DNA of 64,000 nucleotides from Brevinematales bacterium. GTDB lineage: Bacteria; Spirochaetota; Brevinematia; Brevinematales; Thermospiraceae. The notes beneath the pieces are model-generated. The model saw only the letters and a list, made by a program, of their open reading frames with translations. It was not told where the DNA came from and searched no databases. The position numbers and the translations under genes were made by a program. Of the stretch, positions 18,517 to 25,973 are shown in pieces; the first letter of the stretch is position 1; every line of letters starts with the position of its first letter. Location of the stretch: assembly GCA_013177995.1 (NCBI GenBank), contig JABLXN010000002.1:1-64000 (forward strand), written 5' to 3'.

Positions 18517-19602
18517 TCAATGCGAAATAGGCTTTTTTTCGAAATAGAAAGAGGGAGAAGAGAAATCTCTCAAAATACTCTCACCTCTTTCAAAAGAAAT
18601 CTCCTTTCCAACGGATGCCACACGAAGGGAAAGACAGGAAAGACACTCCCAGCCATCTTCATCAAGACATATCTTGTTGGGGTAGAGGAGATAGTGGTGT
18701 TTTTTTTCCGTGGGAGTGATATTGGGCATGAGGACATTTGCCCCTGCGGCAAGCATCATCTCCCTTCCTTGTGGGTGGAGAGAGCCAGCCGCTGTCGTAG
18801 CCGGAATATTTGCCCATGGAAGAAGAAGCCTGAGAAGAGCGGTGATGCGGATGGTTTCTTCTATGGGAAGGGGGCTCTCTGAAGCAAGGGGGGTATCAGG
18901 GTGGGGAAGAAAGGGCCCAATACCTACCATTTCTAACTGAAGCTCACGACACAAAAGGACATTACGGAGTCGTATGGCTACCGTCTCCCCTGGAAGTCCC
19001 ACCATAAAGCCAGATCCTACAGCATAGCCTTCTGCTTTGAGGTCGTCAAGTGCCTGAAGTCTTTTAGAGAGGGTTTTGCCCGGACAGAGACGAGCAAACA
19101 ACGATTCGTCTGAGGTTTCAAAGCGGAGGAGATAGCGGTTTGCTCCTGCTTTTTTCCATTCTCGGTACACTTCCCGAGGATAGACACCGCAGGAAAGCGT
19201 GAAAGCGACATCTTCTCCTGTTATGTGACGGAGTTGGTAAAGAAGGCGTGCCATCCGTTCAGGAAGTTCTATTCGATACTCACCACTCTGGAGAACAAAG
19301 GTCTTGAAACCAAAAGAGAGGCCTTTTTTCACCGTTTCGAGAATCTCCTCATCGGACAGGGTATAACGTTGCGCCTTGTGGTTGGATTTCCTGATACCAC
19401 AGTAGAGACAATCACAGAGACACTCATTGGAAAATTCAATGAGTCCCCGGAGAAATACTTTGTTGCCATAAGTCTCTGCACATACCTGTTGGGCTAAAGA
19501 GACGAGTTCGGTTGTAGATCTTGACAACAACCATTCCATCAGGGCATCAAAGGAGAGTTCCGTCAAATGAAGAGGATCGAAAAATGGTTTAGTAGTACAC
19601 AT
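18517..19602 (-). CDS. hydE: [FeFe]-hydrogenase maturation radical SAM protein HydE
   Basis: A 361-residue radical S-adenosylmethionine enzyme of H-cluster assembly. The cluster motif CLCDCLYC gives Cys61, 65 and 68 (CxxxCxxC). The barrel continues with QSGEY, RFETSD and GFMVGLPGET. HydE acts on the iron-cysteine product of HydG to build the 2Fe subcluster. It overlaps hydG by 14 bp and ends 17 bp before the hydF start, so the three are translationally linked. The close relation to biotin synthase-like enzymes is outweighed by the neighbourhood. Confidence 0.95.
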   Translation of the reverse strand: MCTTKPFFDPLHLTELSFDALMEWLLSRSTTELVSLAQQVCAETYGNKVFLRGLIEFSNECLCDCLYCGIRKSNHKAQRYTLSDEEILETVKKGLSFGFKTFVLQSGEYRIELPERMARLLYQLRHITGEDVAFTLSCGVYPREVYREWKKAGANRYLLRFETSDESLFARLCPGKTLSKRLQALDDLKAEGYAVGSGFMVGLPGETVAIRLRNVLLCRELQLEMVGIGPFLPHPDTPLASESPLPIEETIRITALLRLLLPWANIPATTAAGSLHPQGREMMLAAGANVLMPNITPTEKKHHYLLYPNKICLDEDGWECLSCLSLRVASVGKEISFERGESILRDFSSPSFYFEKKPISH

Positions 19603-20992
19603 CGCGCTTTCCTTGGGCTACTTCGTAGAGGCCCTTTTCTGTTCTTGTTTTGAGGTTTTTGTCTTCTATCTCGGAGACCAAAAGCTGGATGAGACGGAGC
19701 CCTTTTTCTCTTGTTTGGGGAGAGGCATAGTCTTCTAAGTATTCTCTAAAAGAGAATAGCCCATTGGGCATGCAGAATTTCTGGATGAGCCCGGGTTTGG
19801 CAAGGTCCATGAAATCCTGGCCTACCCGTCCTTTTCTATAACAGCCGGTACAGAAGGAAGGAATAAAACCATCATCAATGAGGGCTGAGATGACCTCATC
19901 AAGACTTCGGTGATCACCCAGGGAGAACTGGCTTCCTGTTTTCTCTTCTGGATGAGAGTAGGCTCCAGGGTTGGTTCTTGAGCCGGCGGAGATCTGGCTC
20001 ACTCCATAGTGAAAGAGTTCCTGGCGGAGGGTTTCACTTTCTCTGGTGGAGAGAATGATACCCGTATAGGGGAGGGCCAATCGAATAATAGCCACAATCT
20101 TTTTGAAATCTCTATCGGAAACAGGATAGGGAATATGGGTCGAGAGAGGGGCTCCCTCGGCTGGTTCAATACGGGGAACACTTACCGTATGAGGACCGCA
20201 CCCGAATTTTCTCTCAAGATGGTAGGCATGGACAAGAAGCGAAAGTACCTCAAAGCGATAGTCAGCCAGTCCAAAGAGAACACCTATGCCAACATCATCA
20301 ATACCCCCTTCCATAGCCCTATCCATCACAAAAAGTCGCCAGAGATAGTCCGATTTTGGACCAGAAGGGTGGTATTTTTTGTAGAGTATTTCATCGTATG
20401 TCTCCTGAAAACAGGCATAGGTTCCTATCTTTTCTGCCTTGAGGCGACGAAAACCATCAATATCAAGGGGGGCAATCTCCACATTGATCCGGCGGATAGA
20501 TGAACCTCTCTCATCTCGTGTGGCATACACTCGTCGAATGGCCTCTAAAAAGTAGTCAAGTGGTGTGCGTTCATCCTCACCCGTGAGCATAAGGATGCGC
20601 TTGTGTCCCTGTCTCAGAAGCATTTTCGTTTCTTCTTCAATCTCTTCGTAGGTCAGTTTTGCCCGTCCGAGAGCGGTATTGTCTTTTCGAAAAGCGCAGT
20701 AGAGACAATTGTTTGAACAGTAGTTGCCTATATAAAGGGGTGCAAAAAGCACCATTCGTTTGCCGTAAATGGCTTCTTTTACCTGATGGGCGGTAGAGAG
20801 AATGAGACGGATATCTTCTTCTGTTTCTGCCTGGAGAAGGAGAGCCACCTTGTCGAGAGAAAGCCCTTTGAGTTTCAGAGCCTCGTGGAGAATATCCTGA
20901 AGTTTGTCTTTTGTATAGAGTTTTTGAGCGTCTTCAAGCCTGTTGTACAGTTCATCCCTTGGGATGAATGACGTCTCGGTCAGTGTCCGCAT
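19589..20992 (-). CDS. hydG: [FeFe]-hydrogenase maturation tyrosine lyase HydG
   Basis: A 467-residue radical SAM enzyme that cleaves tyrosine to p-cresol, CO and cyanide for the H-cluster. The SAM cluster cysteines are 92, 96 and 99 (CSNNCLYC). The C-terminal auxiliary cluster has the HydG-specific pattern CxxC, 22 residues, C (CTGCYRKG to QKFC), which separates it from ThiH. GGGAGGAAAAAG lies directly before the ATG. The start overlaps the 3' end of the TM1266-like gene by 41 bp. Confidence 0.96.
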   Translation of the reverse strand: MRTLTETSFIPRDELYNRLEDAQKLYTKDKLQDILHEALKLKGLSLDKVALLLQAETEEDIRLILSTAHQVKEAIYGKRMVLFAPLYIGNYCSNNCLYCAFRKDNTALGRAKLTYEEIEEETKMLLRQGHKRILMLTGEDERTPLDYFLEAIRRVYATRDERGSSIRRINVEIAPLDIDGFRRLKAEKIGTYACFQETYDEILYKKYHPSGPKSDYLWRLFVMDRAMEGGIDDVGIGVLFGLADYRFEVLSLLVHAYHLERKFGCGPHTVSVPRIEPAEGAPLSTHIPYPVSDRDFKKIVAIIRLALPYTGIILSTRESETLRQELFHYGVSQISAGSRTNPGAYSHPEEKTGSQFSLGDHRSLDEVISALIDDGFIPSFCTGCYRKGRVGQDFMDLAKPGLIQKFCMPNGLFSFREYLEDYASPQTREKGLRLIQLLVSEIEDKNLKTRTEKGLYEVAQGKRDVYY

Positions 20993-21248
20993 CTTTTTCC
21001 TCCCTTGTTCGTGAGAGGATGGATTTGACCCTGACCCCGGGGAGACGACCCAATTTGCCTGTGAGAGCCCCTACTTCATCAGTGGTGGCTTCTACAATGA
21101 GAGAGATGACACGGAGATGCTCTTCGCGAAGGTTCATTCCCTGTCTGCCAAGAATACAGTCGCTATACTCTCCCAGAATACGGGAAACAACAGGAACCTG
21201 TGAGAAGTTCTCAATCATGATGCCGATGATACCGATTCTCTTGTCCAT
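20952..21248 (-). CDS. TM1266-type putative hydrogenase-system regulator
   Basis: A 98-residue protein with an ACT/ferredoxin-like fold pattern (RIGIIGIMIEN at the start, then HLRVISLIVEATTDEVGALTGKLG). Proteins of this TM1266 family are commonly found next to HydE/F/G and are named putative iron-only hydrogenase system regulators; no mechanism is settled. The ATG at 21248 has GGGAGG upstream. It is first in the operon, just behind an operator-like palindrome, which makes a regulatory role attractive but unproven. Confidence 0.85.
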   Translation of the reverse strand: MDKRIGIIGIMIENFSQVPVVSRILGEYSDCILGRQGMNLREEHLRVISLIVEATTDEVGALTGKLGRLPGVRVKSILSRTREEKDADTDRDVIHPKG

Positions 21249-21302
21249 CAGGCCTCCCTCTGGACTTGATTGGGTTTGCCTCCTTGAGGGGGAAGGGTCC
21301 AC

Positions 21303-21589: not shown

Positions 21590-21618
21590 TTGACGGAAAT
21601 ACTCTTTTTCGCTATAAT
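21590..21618 (+). promoter_or_regulatory. Promoter of the peptidase-efp-acc-murF operon
   Basis: TTGACG (21590-21595), 17 bp, TATAAT (21613-21618), 24 bp before the ATG at 21642. The roughly 240 bp between this and the hyd promoter contain only an imperfect TTTCAGC/GCTGAAA hairpin (21442-21470) and no credible gene. Confidence 0.88.
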
Positions 21619-21641
21619 ATACCACCTTGAAGGAGTATGGG

Positions 21642-22715
21642 ATGTTTGATTTTGCAAAGCGGATCTCGAGGGTTCAGCAGAGTCTCTCCAGTGGGGAAGC
21701 GCTTCTTGTTTTACAGAGGGAAGAGGTATTTTATCTCACGGGGTTTACTGGTGATGATACCTTTGTGGGGATAACACCGACAAAAGTTTTTTTCATTACC
21801 GACAGGCGTTATACAGAACAGCTGAAGTATGAGGTGAAAATACCCTACCATCTTCTGTTGGTTGAGGGAACACGCGGAAGAAAGGAAAACGTCCTTTCGC
21901 TCATAGAGGAAGAAGCGGTGAAAAGGCTTCTTGTGGACAAGAGTCGTTTTCCTTTTTCTCTCTATGAATATTTGGCCTCTCAGGTGCCGGGTCTTGAGTA
22001 TGGAGAAACCTCGGTGGTGAAAGAGATGCGGATGGTGAAGGATGAGATGGAGGTAGAGATTATCAAGCAAAATCTCATGATTACGGAGTGGGGGTATTAT
22101 TATATTCTGAGGCAGACAAAGCCGGGTAAACGAGAGGAGGAACTGGCGGCTGAGCTTGAGTATTTTCTCAAAAAGAAGGGAGCGAAGGCGTTTTCCTTTG
22201 AGCCTATTGTGGCTTCAGGGTATAGGACTACCCTTCCTCATGGAACAGCTTCTTCTCGTATGATTGAAAAAAACGATATTGTGATGTTTGATTTTGGGGT
22301 TTTGAAGGATGGGTATTGTTCTGACTTTACAAGATGTTTTTCTCCCGTTAAAATAAAGAAACCAAAAATCCTTGAGGTAAGGAGTATTGTAGAGGAGGCA
22401 CTCAAGGCAGCCGAAGCAGTGGTAAGACCCGGGGTGTTGGCCGAGGAGGTACATGCTGCTGCCTATCGGGTTATTGAGAAGGCAGGATATGCGGCCAATT
22501 TCTGGCACTCGACGGGCCATGGAGTAGGGGTGGAGATTCATGAAGACCCTTATCTTCGCTTTGGATGCAAAGAGGTGCTGAAGGAGGGAATGGTATTCAC
22601 TGTAGAACCGGGCATTTATCTCCCTGAAGAGGGCTTTGGTATTCGCCTTGAGGATATGGTGGTGGTACGGAAAAACGGGGGAGAAGTATTGACTAAGGCT
22701 GAGTATGATGTGTAA
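21642..22715 (+). CDS. Xaa-Pro aminopeptidase/dipeptidase, M24 family
   Basis: A 357-residue two-metal peptidase that releases N-terminal residues ahead of proline. The creatinase N-domain is followed by the pita-bread catalytic domain. Metal ligands are visible in MFDFGVLKDGYCSDFTR (two Asp), HSTGHGVG (His), TVEPGIY (Glu) and IRLEDMV (Glu). The ATG at 21642 lies six bases after AAGGAG. Its place before efp, accB and accC matches the yqhT-efp-accB-accC order known from Bacillus, so it is probably the YqhT-type enzyme. Confidence 0.92.
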   Translation: MFDFAKRISRVQQSLSSGEALLVLQREEVFYLTGFTGDDTFVGITPTKVFFITDRRYTEQLKYEVKIPYHLLLVEGTRGRKENVLSLIEEEAVKRLLVDKSRFPFSLYEYLASQVPGLEYGETSVVKEMRMVKDEMEVEIIKQNLMITEWGYYYILRQTKPGKREEELAAELEYFLKKKGAKAFSFEPIVASGYRTTLPHGTASSRMIEKNDIVMFDFGVLKDGYCSDFTRCFSPVKIKKPKILEVRSIVEEALKAAEAVVRPGVLAEEVHAAAYRVIEKAGYAANFWHSTGHGVGVEIHEDPYLRFGCKEVLKEGMVFTVEPGIYLPEEGFGIRLEDMVVVRKNGGEVLTKAEYDV

Positions 22716-22732: not shown

Positions 22733-23293
22733 ATGATATCGTCGAATGACCTTCGCAAAGGGACAGTGATCAAGATTGATGGAGAACTTTACAAAGTGAT
22801 ATGGTTTCAGCATCACAAACCTGGAAAAGGTGGAGCGGTTGTTCGTACAAAACTCAAAAATCTTCTCCGTGATGCTGTAGTGGAAAAAACCTTTCGAGCA
22901 GGAGAGGATTTAGAGGATGTGATGGTGGAGACCAGACCTGCTCAGCTTCTCTACAAGGAAGGTGAAGAGTATGTTTTCATGGATACGGAGAGTTATGAAC
23001 AGTTTCATGTGTCTGAAGAGGTTGTGGACGAGGCGGCAAAATATCTCAAGAACGAGATGATATGTAACCTTTCCTTTTACGATGGACAGGTGATTGCGGT
23101 AGAACCCCCTATGTTTGTAGAACTCGAGATTGTGGAGACAGATCCTGGTTTGCGTGGGGATACGGTGAGTGGGGGCTCAAAGCCAGCCACGCTTGAGACG
23201 GGAGCCGTGGTTCAGGTGCCGCTCTTTGTGCAGGTTGGTGAAAAGATTCGTGTTGATACACGTGATGACCGTTATATTGAACGCGTGAAGTAA
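22733..23293 (+). CDS. efp: Translation elongation factor P
   Basis: A 186-residue three-domain factor that relieves ribosome stalling at proline runs. The conserved loop reads KPGKGGAVVRTK with the functional lysine at 32, corresponding to the modified Lys34 of Escherichia coli. The C-terminal OB domain carries GDTVSGGSKPATLETG, near the family signature. No EF-P modification enzyme (epmA, earP or similar) is in the window. It is the second gene of the operon, 17 bp after the peptidase. Confidence 0.96.
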   Translation: MISSNDLRKGTVIKIDGELYKVIWFQHHKPGKGGAVVRTKLKNLLRDAVVEKTFRAGEDLEDVMVETRPAQLLYKEGEEYVFMDTESYEQFHVSEEVVDEAAKYLKNEMICNLSFYDGQVIAVEPPMFVELEIVETDPGLRGDTVSGGSKPATLETGAVVQVPLFVQVGEKIRVDTRDDRYIERVK

Positions 23294-23316
23294 AGAAAGA
23301 AGTTGGAGGTGTGAAC

Positions 23317-23763
23317 ATGTTTTCAGTAAAGGAATTGAAAGAGTTATATACTCTTTTTGAAGAGGCTGATGTTGGTGAGATAGAGTTTCAGCATGGTGAG
23401 CTGAAGGTAAGAATGGTAGCTGGGCAGGCGAAGGCACCCGTGGTTACCCCAGCGGTAGTCTCCCCGGCACCGGTTGCGGCTCCATCCCCTTCGTCGGAGG
23501 CAAAGCCTGTCTCTTCAGAACCCCCTATTCAGGATGTGACTTCGAAATGGGTAGGAGTGTTTACACGTTTGAACCCCAAAACCAAGGAAGCCTATGTGAA
23601 ACTCCGTGATACCGTGAAGAAAGGTGATGTGATTGCGCATGTTCGTGTGCTGGGCCATCTTCAGGATGTGGTGTGTGAGTATGATGGGAAGGTGAAGGAG
23701 ATTCTGGTAGAAGAAGGTCAGCCTGTTGAATATGGGCAGCCCCTTTTCCGGCTTGAGGTATAA
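23317..23763 (+). CDS. accB: Acetyl-CoA carboxylase biotin carrier (AccB) homologue lacking the biotinyl lysine
   Basis: A 148-residue protein with the AccB layout: an N-terminal helix region, an Ala/Pro/Ser-rich linker (about 38-70) and a biotinyl-lipoyl domain (76-148). The domain aligns without gaps to ordinary BCCP (VGVFTR, KKGDVI, then GKVKEILVEEGQPVEYGQPLF). At the hairpin turn where BCCP has EAMKM it reads VRVLGHL, placing Gly113 (codon GGC at 23653-23655) at the biotinylated Lys. The flanking Met residues are also gone. The frame is open and no shift restores the motif. It is followed 12 bp later by an intact accC. Without the lysine it cannot carry biotin; plant BADC proteins offer a precedent for such homologues acting as regulatory subunits. 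Confidence 0.88.
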   Translation: MFSVKELKELYTLFEEADVGEIEFQHGELKVRMVAGQAKAPVVTPAVVSPAPVAAPSPSSEAKPVSSEPPIQDVTSKWVGVFTRLNPKTKEAYVKLRDTVKKGDVIAHVRVLGHLQDVVCEYDGKVKEILVEEGQPVEYGQPLFRLEV

Positions 23764-23775
23764 GAGGAGGATGCG

Positions 23776-25119
23776 ATGATAAAGAAAATATTGGTGACGA
23801 ACCGTGGAGAGATTGCCGTTCGTGTGATTCGAGCAGCCAAAGAGTTGGGTATAAAAACAGTGGCCATTCATTCTGAGGCGGACAAGGATAGTCTTCATAC
23901 GCGGTTAGCCGATCAGGATGTGTGTATCGGTCCTGCTCTTTCCAAAGATTCGTATCTGAATATTCCTGCTATTATCAGTGCGGCTGAGATTACAGGCGCG
24001 GATGCGGTGCATCCGGGCTATGGGTTTCTTTCGGAGAATGCCAAGTTTTCCAGGATTTGTCGGGATCATAATATTACCTTCATCGGGCCGACCCCTGAGG
24101 CTATAGAACTTCTTGGAGACAAGGCGTCCGCCAGAAAGACCATGAGTGAAGTAGGTGTACCGATTACGCCCGGAACTGGTATCATCAAGGATGTTTCAGA
24201 AGCTATGAAGTTTGCTCATGAGGTGGGTTATCCGGTGATTGTGAAGGCCACGGCTGGTGGTGGTGGAAAGGGAATGCGTGTAGCCTGGTCTGATGATGAG
24301 CTTGCGAGTATTCTTCCTATTGCTCAGGCTGAGGCACAAACCGCCTTTGGGAATCCGGATGTCTATGTAGAAAAGTACCTTCAGAATCCCCGTCATATTG
24401 AAATCCAGTTTATTGCCGATAAGCATGGAAATGCCGTTTATCTTTTTGAGAGAGACTGTTCTATTCAACGGCGGCATCAGAAGCTTATTGAAGAGGCACC
24501 GAGTCCTGCTCTTTCTCCTGAGATTCGCAAAAAAATGGGTGAGGCAGCCTGTCGTGGTGCCCTTCATGCTGGATACTATGGAGCGGGTACCATGGAGTTT
24601 CTCTTTGATGAGGAGAGTCAGCAATTCTACTTCATGGAAGTCAATGCCCGTATTCAGGTAGAACATCCCGTGACCGAACTTATCACCGGTGTTGATCTCA
24701 TCAAGGAACAGATTCTTGTGGCTATGGGGGAAAAGCTCTCCTTCAAACAGGAGGATCTCAAGGTAAATGGTCATGCGATTGAATGTCGTATCAATGCCGA
24801 GGATCCTTATATGAACTTTATGCCTGTGCCTGGAAAGATTACTGAACTTCACTTTCCGGGAGGGCCTGGTATTCGGATTGATAGTCATATCTATGCGGGC
24901 TATGAGATTCCAAAATATTATGACTCGCTCGTGGCCAAGGTACTTGCCTGGGGGCGTGATAGACAGGAAGCTATTGCCCGTATGCGTCGACTTCTTGATG
25001 AGATGCGCATAGAAGGGATTAAAACCACGGCACCCTTTCATCGTCAGATGATGGACAATCCAGATTTTATCAAGGGGAACTACTCCACGAAGTTTATGGA
25101 AAACTTCAAACTCAAATAA
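23776..25119 (+). CDS. accC: Biotin carboxylase subunit of acetyl-CoA carboxylase
   Basis: A 447-residue ATP-grasp enzyme that carboxylates the biotin on the carrier protein with bicarbonate and ATP. The N-domain starts KILVTNRGEIAVRVIRA. The glycine-rich ATP loop is KATAGGGGKGMR, and the catalytic FMEVNARIQVEHPVTE is intact, as is the C-terminal domain. Nothing looks degenerate, in contrast to the adjacent accB homologue. The carboxyltransferase genes accA/accD are not in the window. Confidence 0.96.
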   Translation: MIKKILVTNRGEIAVRVIRAAKELGIKTVAIHSEADKDSLHTRLADQDVCIGPALSKDSYLNIPAIISAAEITGADAVHPGYGFLSENAKFSRICRDHNITFIGPTPEAIELLGDKASARKTMSEVGVPITPGTGIIKDVSEAMKFAHEVGYPVIVKATAGGGGKGMRVAWSDDELASILPIAQAEAQTAFGNPDVYVEKYLQNPRHIEIQFIADKHGNAVYLFERDCSIQRRHQKLIEEAPSPALSPEIRKKMGEAACRGALHAGYYGAGTMEFLFDEESQQFYFMEVNARIQVEHPVTELITGVDLIKEQILVAMGEKLSFKQEDLKVNGHAIECRINAEDPYMNFMPVPGKITELHFPGGPGIRIDSHIYAGYEIPKYYDSLVAKVLAWGRDRQEAIARMRRLLDEMRIEGIKTTAPFHRQMMDNPDFIKGNYSTKFMENFKLK

Positions 25120-25129
25120 AGAGGAAGGT

Positions 25130-25435
25130 ATGGAAAAATTTGTTATTACCAGAAAGGCGGTGGAAGACTTAGTGAAATGGACGGTTCAGGAGTTCGGGAG
25201 TGTCCGGCTTGCCGGTAAAAAAAGGCCGGTGGTGGTTTCTTTTGCTGGTTTTCGTCAGGTTGATGTGAAGTTGGATATTGAGATGAAAGTCGGTCTGAAT
25301 ATGCTTGAAACGACGGAAAAACTCCACCAGAAACTGAAAACGACACTTGAGAAACTTGCTGGTCTTGATCTTCGCCATAGTAAAATAACCGTAAGGGGTC
25401 TGTATGACGAATCGGTCGAAAAGCAAAGTGCTTAA
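25130..25435 (+). CDS. Asp23/Gls24-family protein (YqhY-like)
   Basis: A 101-residue cytoplasmic protein with the Asp23/Gls24 pattern (alternating strands such as RPVVVSFAGFRQVDVKLDIEMKVG, shown in part, and a final helix). In Bacillus the same place after accB-accC is taken by yqhY, an Asp23-family gene linked genetically to acetyl-CoA carboxylase activity. Position and fold pattern therefore agree. Its last 32 bp overlap the next gene. Confidence 0.65.
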   Translation: MEKFVITRKAVEDLVKWTVQEFGSVRLAGKKRPVVVSFAGFRQVDVKLDIEMKVGLNMLETTEKLHQKLKTTLEKLAGLDLRHSKITVRGLYDESVEKQSA

Positions 25436-25973
25436 TATTCTCATTCAAGTAGCCTGGATAGTGGTGGTTTTTGTTGGGCTTTTGTTTCTTGTGATTGTGA
25501 GTCGAAGTTCTCAGCTTCCATTTGAACAGGCTATTCATTTTTCCACTGGTATGTCTCCCTGGACGTTTCTGGGAGTTGTGGGCTGGGTTTTGACGCTGAT
25601 GGGTCTTGTCGCAGCGGCCTGGTGGTACTATGAACATTTTTATAGCCATACGATTTATGTTCGGACGCCGTATGGGGAACTTGAGATTCACAAGGCGGCT
25701 ATACAGGGCTATCTTGTAGAGCAGCTTGAACAACTTCCTGAGGTAGTGGATTGTGATGTGAGTGTGGCTATTTTCAAGAGGCGTTTTGTGGCTCTCGATA
25801 TTCATGTGCTTTTGGCTTCTGAGAAGTCCTGTCGGGAGTATGGGGAAAAGCTTCAGCAGGATATTCTTCAGATGCTTCTCTCTACCTTTGGGATCAAAGA
25901 TATCAAACGTTTTCACCTGCAGGTGAACGCTTTTGTTGGGGGGGAATCTCACAAAACGGTTCGCTACCGGTAA
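25404..25973 (+). CDS. AmaP-like membrane anchor protein
   Basis: A 189-residue protein with two transmembrane helices (about 9-31 and 50-73) and a cytoplasmic alpha/beta tail that resembles the Asp23 fold. This is the layout of AmaP, the membrane anchor of Asp23 in Gram-positive bacteria. The pairing with the preceding Asp23-like gene supports the call. Homology is weak and based on topology, context and pattern only. Confidence 0.55.
   Translation: MTNRSKSKVLNILIQVAWIVVVFVGLLFLVIVSRSSQLPFEQAIHFSTGMSPWTFLGVVGWVLTLMGLVAAAWWYYEHFYSHTIYVRTPYGELEIHKAAIQGYLVEQLEQLPEVVDCDVSVAIFKRRFVALDIHVLLASEKSCREYGEKLQQDILQMLLSTFGIKDIKRFHLQVNAFVGGESHKTVRYR

Follow-up and report, generated by a model that had tools for sequence, protein, structure and literature searches.

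Fatty-acid synthesis has its committed step at ACC, an enzyme whose control in most bacteria is, to our knowledge, poorly understood. In plants, the BADC proteins are homologues of BCCP that do not carry the AMKL motif (PMC11926652). By NMR, plant BADC was found to contact BCCP at its thumb side, which led to the proposal of a "cap" model; inhibition had been observed in earlier work (PMC11926652). Plastid ACC is also known to dock at the envelope in plants (PMC7712654). In Bacillus, YqhY, a member of the Asp23 family encoded after accBC, restrains ACC (PMC5437119). Our search, which covered openly licensed literature, yielded no description of a BADC-like family in bacteria. Here we describe a biotin-less twin of BCCP, apparently undescribed in bacteria, which looks like a bacterial counterpart of plant BADC. 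The protein is encoded in a window of 64,000 nucleotides from a Brevinematales bacterium (assembly GCA_013177995.1, contig JABLXN010000002.1, positions 1 to 64,000 of the forward strand).

Results

An AccB paralogue without the biotinylated lysine is encoded beside accC

The gene, here termed accB', lies at 23317 to 23763 of the window on the (+) strand and encodes a protein of 148 amino acids; a GTG at 23311 (+) is a possible alternative start. The frame is intact through to its C-terminal end (...DTVKKGDVIAHVRVLGHLQDVVCEYDGKVKEILVEEGQPVEYGQPLFRLEV), and profile matches reveal AccB-like similarity over the full length of the product. In the alignment with BCCP, the biotinylated lysine is replaced by Gly113, encoded by ggc at 23653 to 23655 (+), and the protein reads RVLGH where BCCP has EAMKM. 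With no lysine to bear biotin, the accB' product cannot carry CO2. The protein scored 84.3 bits against TIGR00531, under the BCCP equivalog cut-off of 115.2 that a true BCCP is expected to reach, and 39.8 bits against PF00364, above the cut-off of that model.

The predicted fold is that of a true BCCP, having a biotinyl domain with a thumb as well as the N-terminal domain. In the AlphaFold2 model, the core has a pLDDT of approximately 91 and the linker is disordered. When searched with Foldseek, the predicted core was superimposed on E. coli BCCP from the complex with biotin carboxylase (4hr7_G) with a TM score of 0.94 to the target and an rmsd of 1.3, and the model also matched 1bdo and Arabidopsis BCCP1 (9a87). 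A profile of the Lys-less family could be aligned with E. coli BCCP from the BC-BCCP crystal (4hr7_B) along its entire length, the N-terminal domain included.

At the lysine site, each of the eight order-level relatives has VLG, and all four glycine codons are found there among nine genomes. A preliminary description of this DNA had named a sequencing error as what might overturn its central claim; such an error is excluded by these relatives and codons, and the claim itself, that an AccB homologue next to accC is without the biotin lysine in an intact and otherwise AccB-like frame, stands.

Examination of the surrounding DNA revealed a tight cluster in the order pepP-efp-accB'-accC-asp23-amaP-murF, with gaps of 9 to 23 bp and a single overlap of 32 bp. 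At its head is a gene for a PepP-like Xaa-Pro peptidase (21627 to 22715, +), assigned from sequence and found in the same order in relatives. Next is efp, encoding elongation factor P (22733 to 23293, +; TIGR00038, 259.5 bits), a conserved neighbor that adjoins accB' in both phyla considered below. The biotin carboxylase gene accC (23776 to 25119, +) scored 733 bits against TIGR00514, whose cut-off is 626.5 bits, and is the only match to Biotin_carb_C in the genome. In the position held by yqhY in Bacillus is an Asp23-like gene (25130 to 25435, +), whose match to PF03780 is weak, at 25.7 bits just under the gathering score of 28.0. It is kept after accC within the order, and both its position and the AmaP-like gene beside it agree with the Asp23/YqhY family. 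This second gene (25404 to 25973, +) encodes an AmaP-like membrane anchor, with 63.5 bits against NF033218 (cut-off 55). The Asp23/YqhY-like gene of the preliminary description is thus real, if weakly matched, and is followed by a candidate anchor. A possible promoter for the cluster, TTGACG-17-TATAAT at 21590 to 21618 (+), agrees with the consensus at 11 of 12 positions, such sites being no more numerous in the region than expected by chance. On the opposite strand, at 18517 to 21302 of the window (-), two radical-SAM genes resembling HydE and HydG are preceded by a short gene resembling a hydrogenase-system regulator; judging by these resemblances, the genes probably function in [FeFe]-hydrogenase maturation.

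A true BCCP is encoded elsewhere in the genome

The genome comprises 2.38 Mb in 57 contigs and is estimated to be 100% complete. Besides accB', it has one match to Biotin_lipoyl, a true BCCP bearing EAMKVMNEI, encoded on another contig (G000:C19:11986-12594) and adjoining mutS. The search for further biotinyl domains proposed in the preliminary description thus returned a single carrier with its lysine. There is one AccC, that of the window, for two carriers. The carboxyltransferase genes are two in number, one AccD-like and one AccA-like, and the single biotin ligase has an N-terminus resembling an HTH; a normal biotin route therefore exists in this organism. Since AccC is single and the true BCCP of this route is remote from it, AccC must use the remote BCCP.

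Lys-less copies occur in two phyla

We searched 100 genomes, including that of the window, with the BCCP model. Lys-less AccB proteins were found in 23 Spirochaetota genomes, three of them from the same genus, six more from the order, four more from the class, and ten more from the phylum, the lysine being replaced by G, N, H, or Q. A true BCCP was found alongside in 19 of the 23, one of these (in G028) being a fragment at a contig edge, and in all 14 genomes of at least 90% completeness. None was found in the other four (G007, G030, G040, and G058), which are 80 to 86% complete. Of the 19 spirochaete genomes outside a family designated f5, 18 have the Lys-less gene immediately before accC, and in the remaining one accC would lie off the contig. 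An EAMK gene is found directly before accC in 15 genomes without a Lys-less copy, and in genomes with such a copy the true BCCP gene adjoins accC in none of the 18 flanks seen. The two genes have swapped places relative to accC. The preliminary description had named an EAMK gene at this locus in relatives as an observation that would refute its claim; such relatives do exist in other Spirochaetota families, but a Lys-less copy was not seen in their genomes.

Family f5 differs in that its Lys-less gene has moved away from accC; in three genomes it is followed by genes for a membrane sensor-kinase-like protein and a TerC-like protein, an arrangement which may indicate a signaling role for the Lys-less protein there. 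At these loci (L050:3883-5677, L051:2702-4457, and L053:2614-4348), the Lys-less accB and the sensor-kinase-like gene overlap slightly.

Other carriers were encountered in the survey. A short EVMKS carrier (L276:900-1190; genome G040, C342:5899-6111) lies between LamB/YcsF-like and AccC-like genes and seems to belong to a different type of carboxylase module rather than being an ACC BCCP. In G027 (L031:25-1917) and G039 (L069:4022-6049), frames of 631 and 676 amino acids end in a BCCP-like domain with EAMKMFNQI, and both genomes also have a separate EAMKMF carrier; the long frames possibly represent carrier fusion proteins in two spirochaete families.

Outside Spirochaetota, 151 Chloroflexota genomes were surveyed and 50 loci read. 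In 25 genomes we identified Lys-less copies in which N, R, G, D, or Q replaces the lysine; most are beside efp, a place at which other Chloroflexota have EAMK. In Thermogemmatispora, for example, an EALNV carrier is encoded in the order pepP-efp-accB'-xseA. The second carrier was EAMK or ETMK in all 21 of the 25 genomes in which it was checked. The survey of orthologues suggested in the preliminary description thus found copies without the lysine in 23 Spirochaetota and 25 Chloroflexota genomes. The Chloroflexota gene is apart from accC and, as in f5, the link to AccC there consequently rests on homology. A search of 59 cyanobacterial genomes yielded no Lys-less copy, BCCP matches of the usual strength being absent from some of these genomes; the cyanobacterial BCCPs that were read had lysine in 30 of 30 cases.

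A general rule that a second BCCP always accompanies loss of the lysine was rejected, as a Rokubacteria genome (G322) has two Lys-bearing BCCPs. In this genome the second BCCP, with EVMKLMN, is encoded directly before a second accC (L301), making two complete Lys-bearing carrier-carboxylase pairs.

The thumb loop of the Lys-less proteins is basic

In true BCCP, the thumb loop follows the pattern S-P-x-P-[DG], with the second proline present in 152 of 158 sequences. Comparison of charge and alignment showed that the corresponding segment of the accB' product, residues 81 to 94 (VFTRLNPKTKEAYV; 23557 to 23598, +), is basic rather than proline-rich. Each of the 22 distinct Lys-less sequences from spirochaetes has a lysine in the column of the second proline, represented in the window by Lys88 (codon 23578 to 23580, +), and Arg84 is likewise invariant among them. 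The net charge of the thumb was +2.2 in Lys-less copies of Spirochaetota and +2.3 in those of Chloroflexota, compared to -0.3, -0.1, and +0.5 in Lys-bearing proteins of Spirochaetota, Chloroflexota, and other phyla. In genomes having two carriers, the thumb of the true BCCP had a charge of -0.7 in both phyla versus +0.3 and +0.4 in the comparison sets (p = 0.0006 and 0.0015, uncorrected for phylogeny), of which the Chloroflexota set may itself include two-carrier genomes. These values suggest that the two carriers may touch through complementary charges, although the change in the thumb could stem simply from its no longer packing on biotin.

Selection and origin of the Lys-less copy

Among three congeneric genomes, the core of the Lys-less protein differed at 1.7 to 5.5% of non-synonymous versus 67 to 82% of synonymous sites, and the core of the true BCCP at 2.3 to 8.2% versus 64 to 72%. 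Ratios of dN to dS were not used because dS is saturated. The Lys-less core is under strong purifying selection, no looser than that acting on the true BCCP. As a paralogue, the Lys-less copy is both old and conserved.

From 143 columns, with the motif columns left out, we built a tree of 103 carriers, which is weak. Within it, 19 of 22 spirochaete Lys-less copies fell in one clade (SH-aLRT 94) and the orphan true spirochaete BCCPs in a separate clade (support 90), the pattern expected after one old duplication. In AU tests, neither a single clade of all Lys-less copies (p = 0.59) nor one clade per phylum (p = 0.76 and 0.65) was rejected. The tree thus agrees with either a single early origin or several separate losses of the lysine.

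Discussion

The accB' product is likely an accessory subunit of ACC. The best explanation for the gene, which we hold to be probable rather than secure, is that it encodes a non-biotinylated accessory or regulatory paralogue of AccB working in the manner of plant BADC. This reading draws on the absent lysine, the conservation of the copy, its pairing with a true BCCP, the purifying selection on it, its basic thumb, and its cluster with accC. The true BCCP, encoded elsewhere, carries CO2 for the single AccC, and the Lys-less protein most likely binds AccC or an AccC-BCCP subcomplex by way of its N-terminal domain and basic thumb loop. So bound, it could act as a cap or scaffold, or as a brake setting the amount of active ACC that is assembled, in line with what has been suggested for plant BADC; the cap version is possible, but we are doubtful that it should be preferred to a plain inhibitor. 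Tethering to the membrane via the Asp23/AmaP-like proteins is a possible further step. The likeness to BADC had been raised in the preliminary description, and a long-conserved Lys-less paralogue is what one would expect of a BADC-like subunit; that it is regulatory is what we infer.

The swapped gene places may also be read as those of a relict, an ancestral accB that was deprived of its role by a second BCCP and has entered decay. Such a history would leave a Lys-less copy at the ancestral efp-accB-accC place with the working BCCP elsewhere, and would agree with a site residue that varies among G, N, H, Q, R, and D. A decaying gene is nonetheless difficult to reconcile with frames intact in all copies read, a core conserved above that of the true BCCP, a glycine invariant in the order under four codons, the newly invariant Arg84 and Lys88 of the thumb, and retention of the Lys-less copy across the whole phylum. 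We regard decay as very improbable, and the earlier judgment that this is not simple decay is upheld by the same glycine, core, and thumb residues. The preliminary description had offered two ways to explain the lost lysine, of which a second, true BCCP was found (C19, EAMKVMNEI). The other, rewired carboxyl transfer with accB' as sole carrier, either biotin-free or biotinylated at a different residue, has in its favor only that the carrier copy beside accC has no lysine. With the EAMKVMNEI BCCP, the biotin ligase, AccA, and AccD, and thus all parts of a normal ACC, in the genome, rewired transfer is not needed, and we give it practically no credence.

E. coli AccB has been reported as a regulator of accBC, and the accB' product might similarly act on transcription or translation of the acc operon with no role in the enzyme complex. 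The shared operon with accC would suit such a regulator, as would the sensor-kinase-like gene that follows the Lys-less gene in f5. Profile searches, however, revealed no DNA-binding domain in accB', the best conserved part is the biotinyl core, which an N-terminus acting on DNA would not require, and in Chloroflexota the gene is apart from accC; we consider this reading unlikely. Somewhat easier to entertain, yet still rather unlikely, is a protein-binding module belonging to an assembly other than ACC, such as one formed with Asp23/AmaP at the membrane or one that includes the f5 sensor kinase. The Asp23- and AmaP-like genes downstream in the order and the lack of an adjoining accC in Chloroflexota and f5 are in keeping with it, but the true BCCP present in every near-complete genome and the accC operon of most spirochaetes point to ACC.

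The BADC-like explanation can be extended to a wider proposal, offered as a conjecture that may well prove wrong: an ancient bacterial family of biotin-less AccB proteins would form hetero-complexes with true BCCP on AccC via complementary thumbs and so control ACC, in Brevinematales perhaps at the membrane via Asp23/AmaP. At least two bacterial phyla would then share the BADC principle, whether it arose once, very early, or by convergence. If true, it is not a plant invention, as a non-biotinylated BCCP paralogue is kept in two phyla, and small bacterial systems would be on offer for testing the cap/glue and inhibitor models disputed in plants. For annotation, an AccB encoded beside AccC in these genomes should not be taken for the biotin carrier.

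Several known systems are comparable to accB'. With BCCP/AccB (TIGR00531; E. coli 4hr7 and 1bdo) it shares the fold, the N-terminal domain, the position of the thumb, and the gene neighborhood, but it differs in having no biotin lysine, a score below the equivalog cut-off, and a thumb that is basic instead of proline-rich. A published Chloroflexota genome with more than one biotinyl carrier is similar in having several carriers, and the accessible part of its description includes no Lys-less carrier. The accBC-yqhY operon of Bacillus has the same accB-accC-asp23 order, but the AccB described here lacks the lysine, and a gene for an AmaP-like anchor lies downstream. The protein likewise resembles plant BADC of the plastid heteromeric ACC (PMC11926652), also a BCCP homologue that has no biotinylation motif and coexists with true BCCP. 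Plant BADC is proposed to bind BC/BCCP and modulate ACC (PMC11926652), and by analogy the accB' product may do the same. We call it BADC-like by anatomy, with no claim of common descent. It differs from plant BADC in being bacterial, in its place within an efp-accB-accC cluster, and in the basic signature of its thumb.
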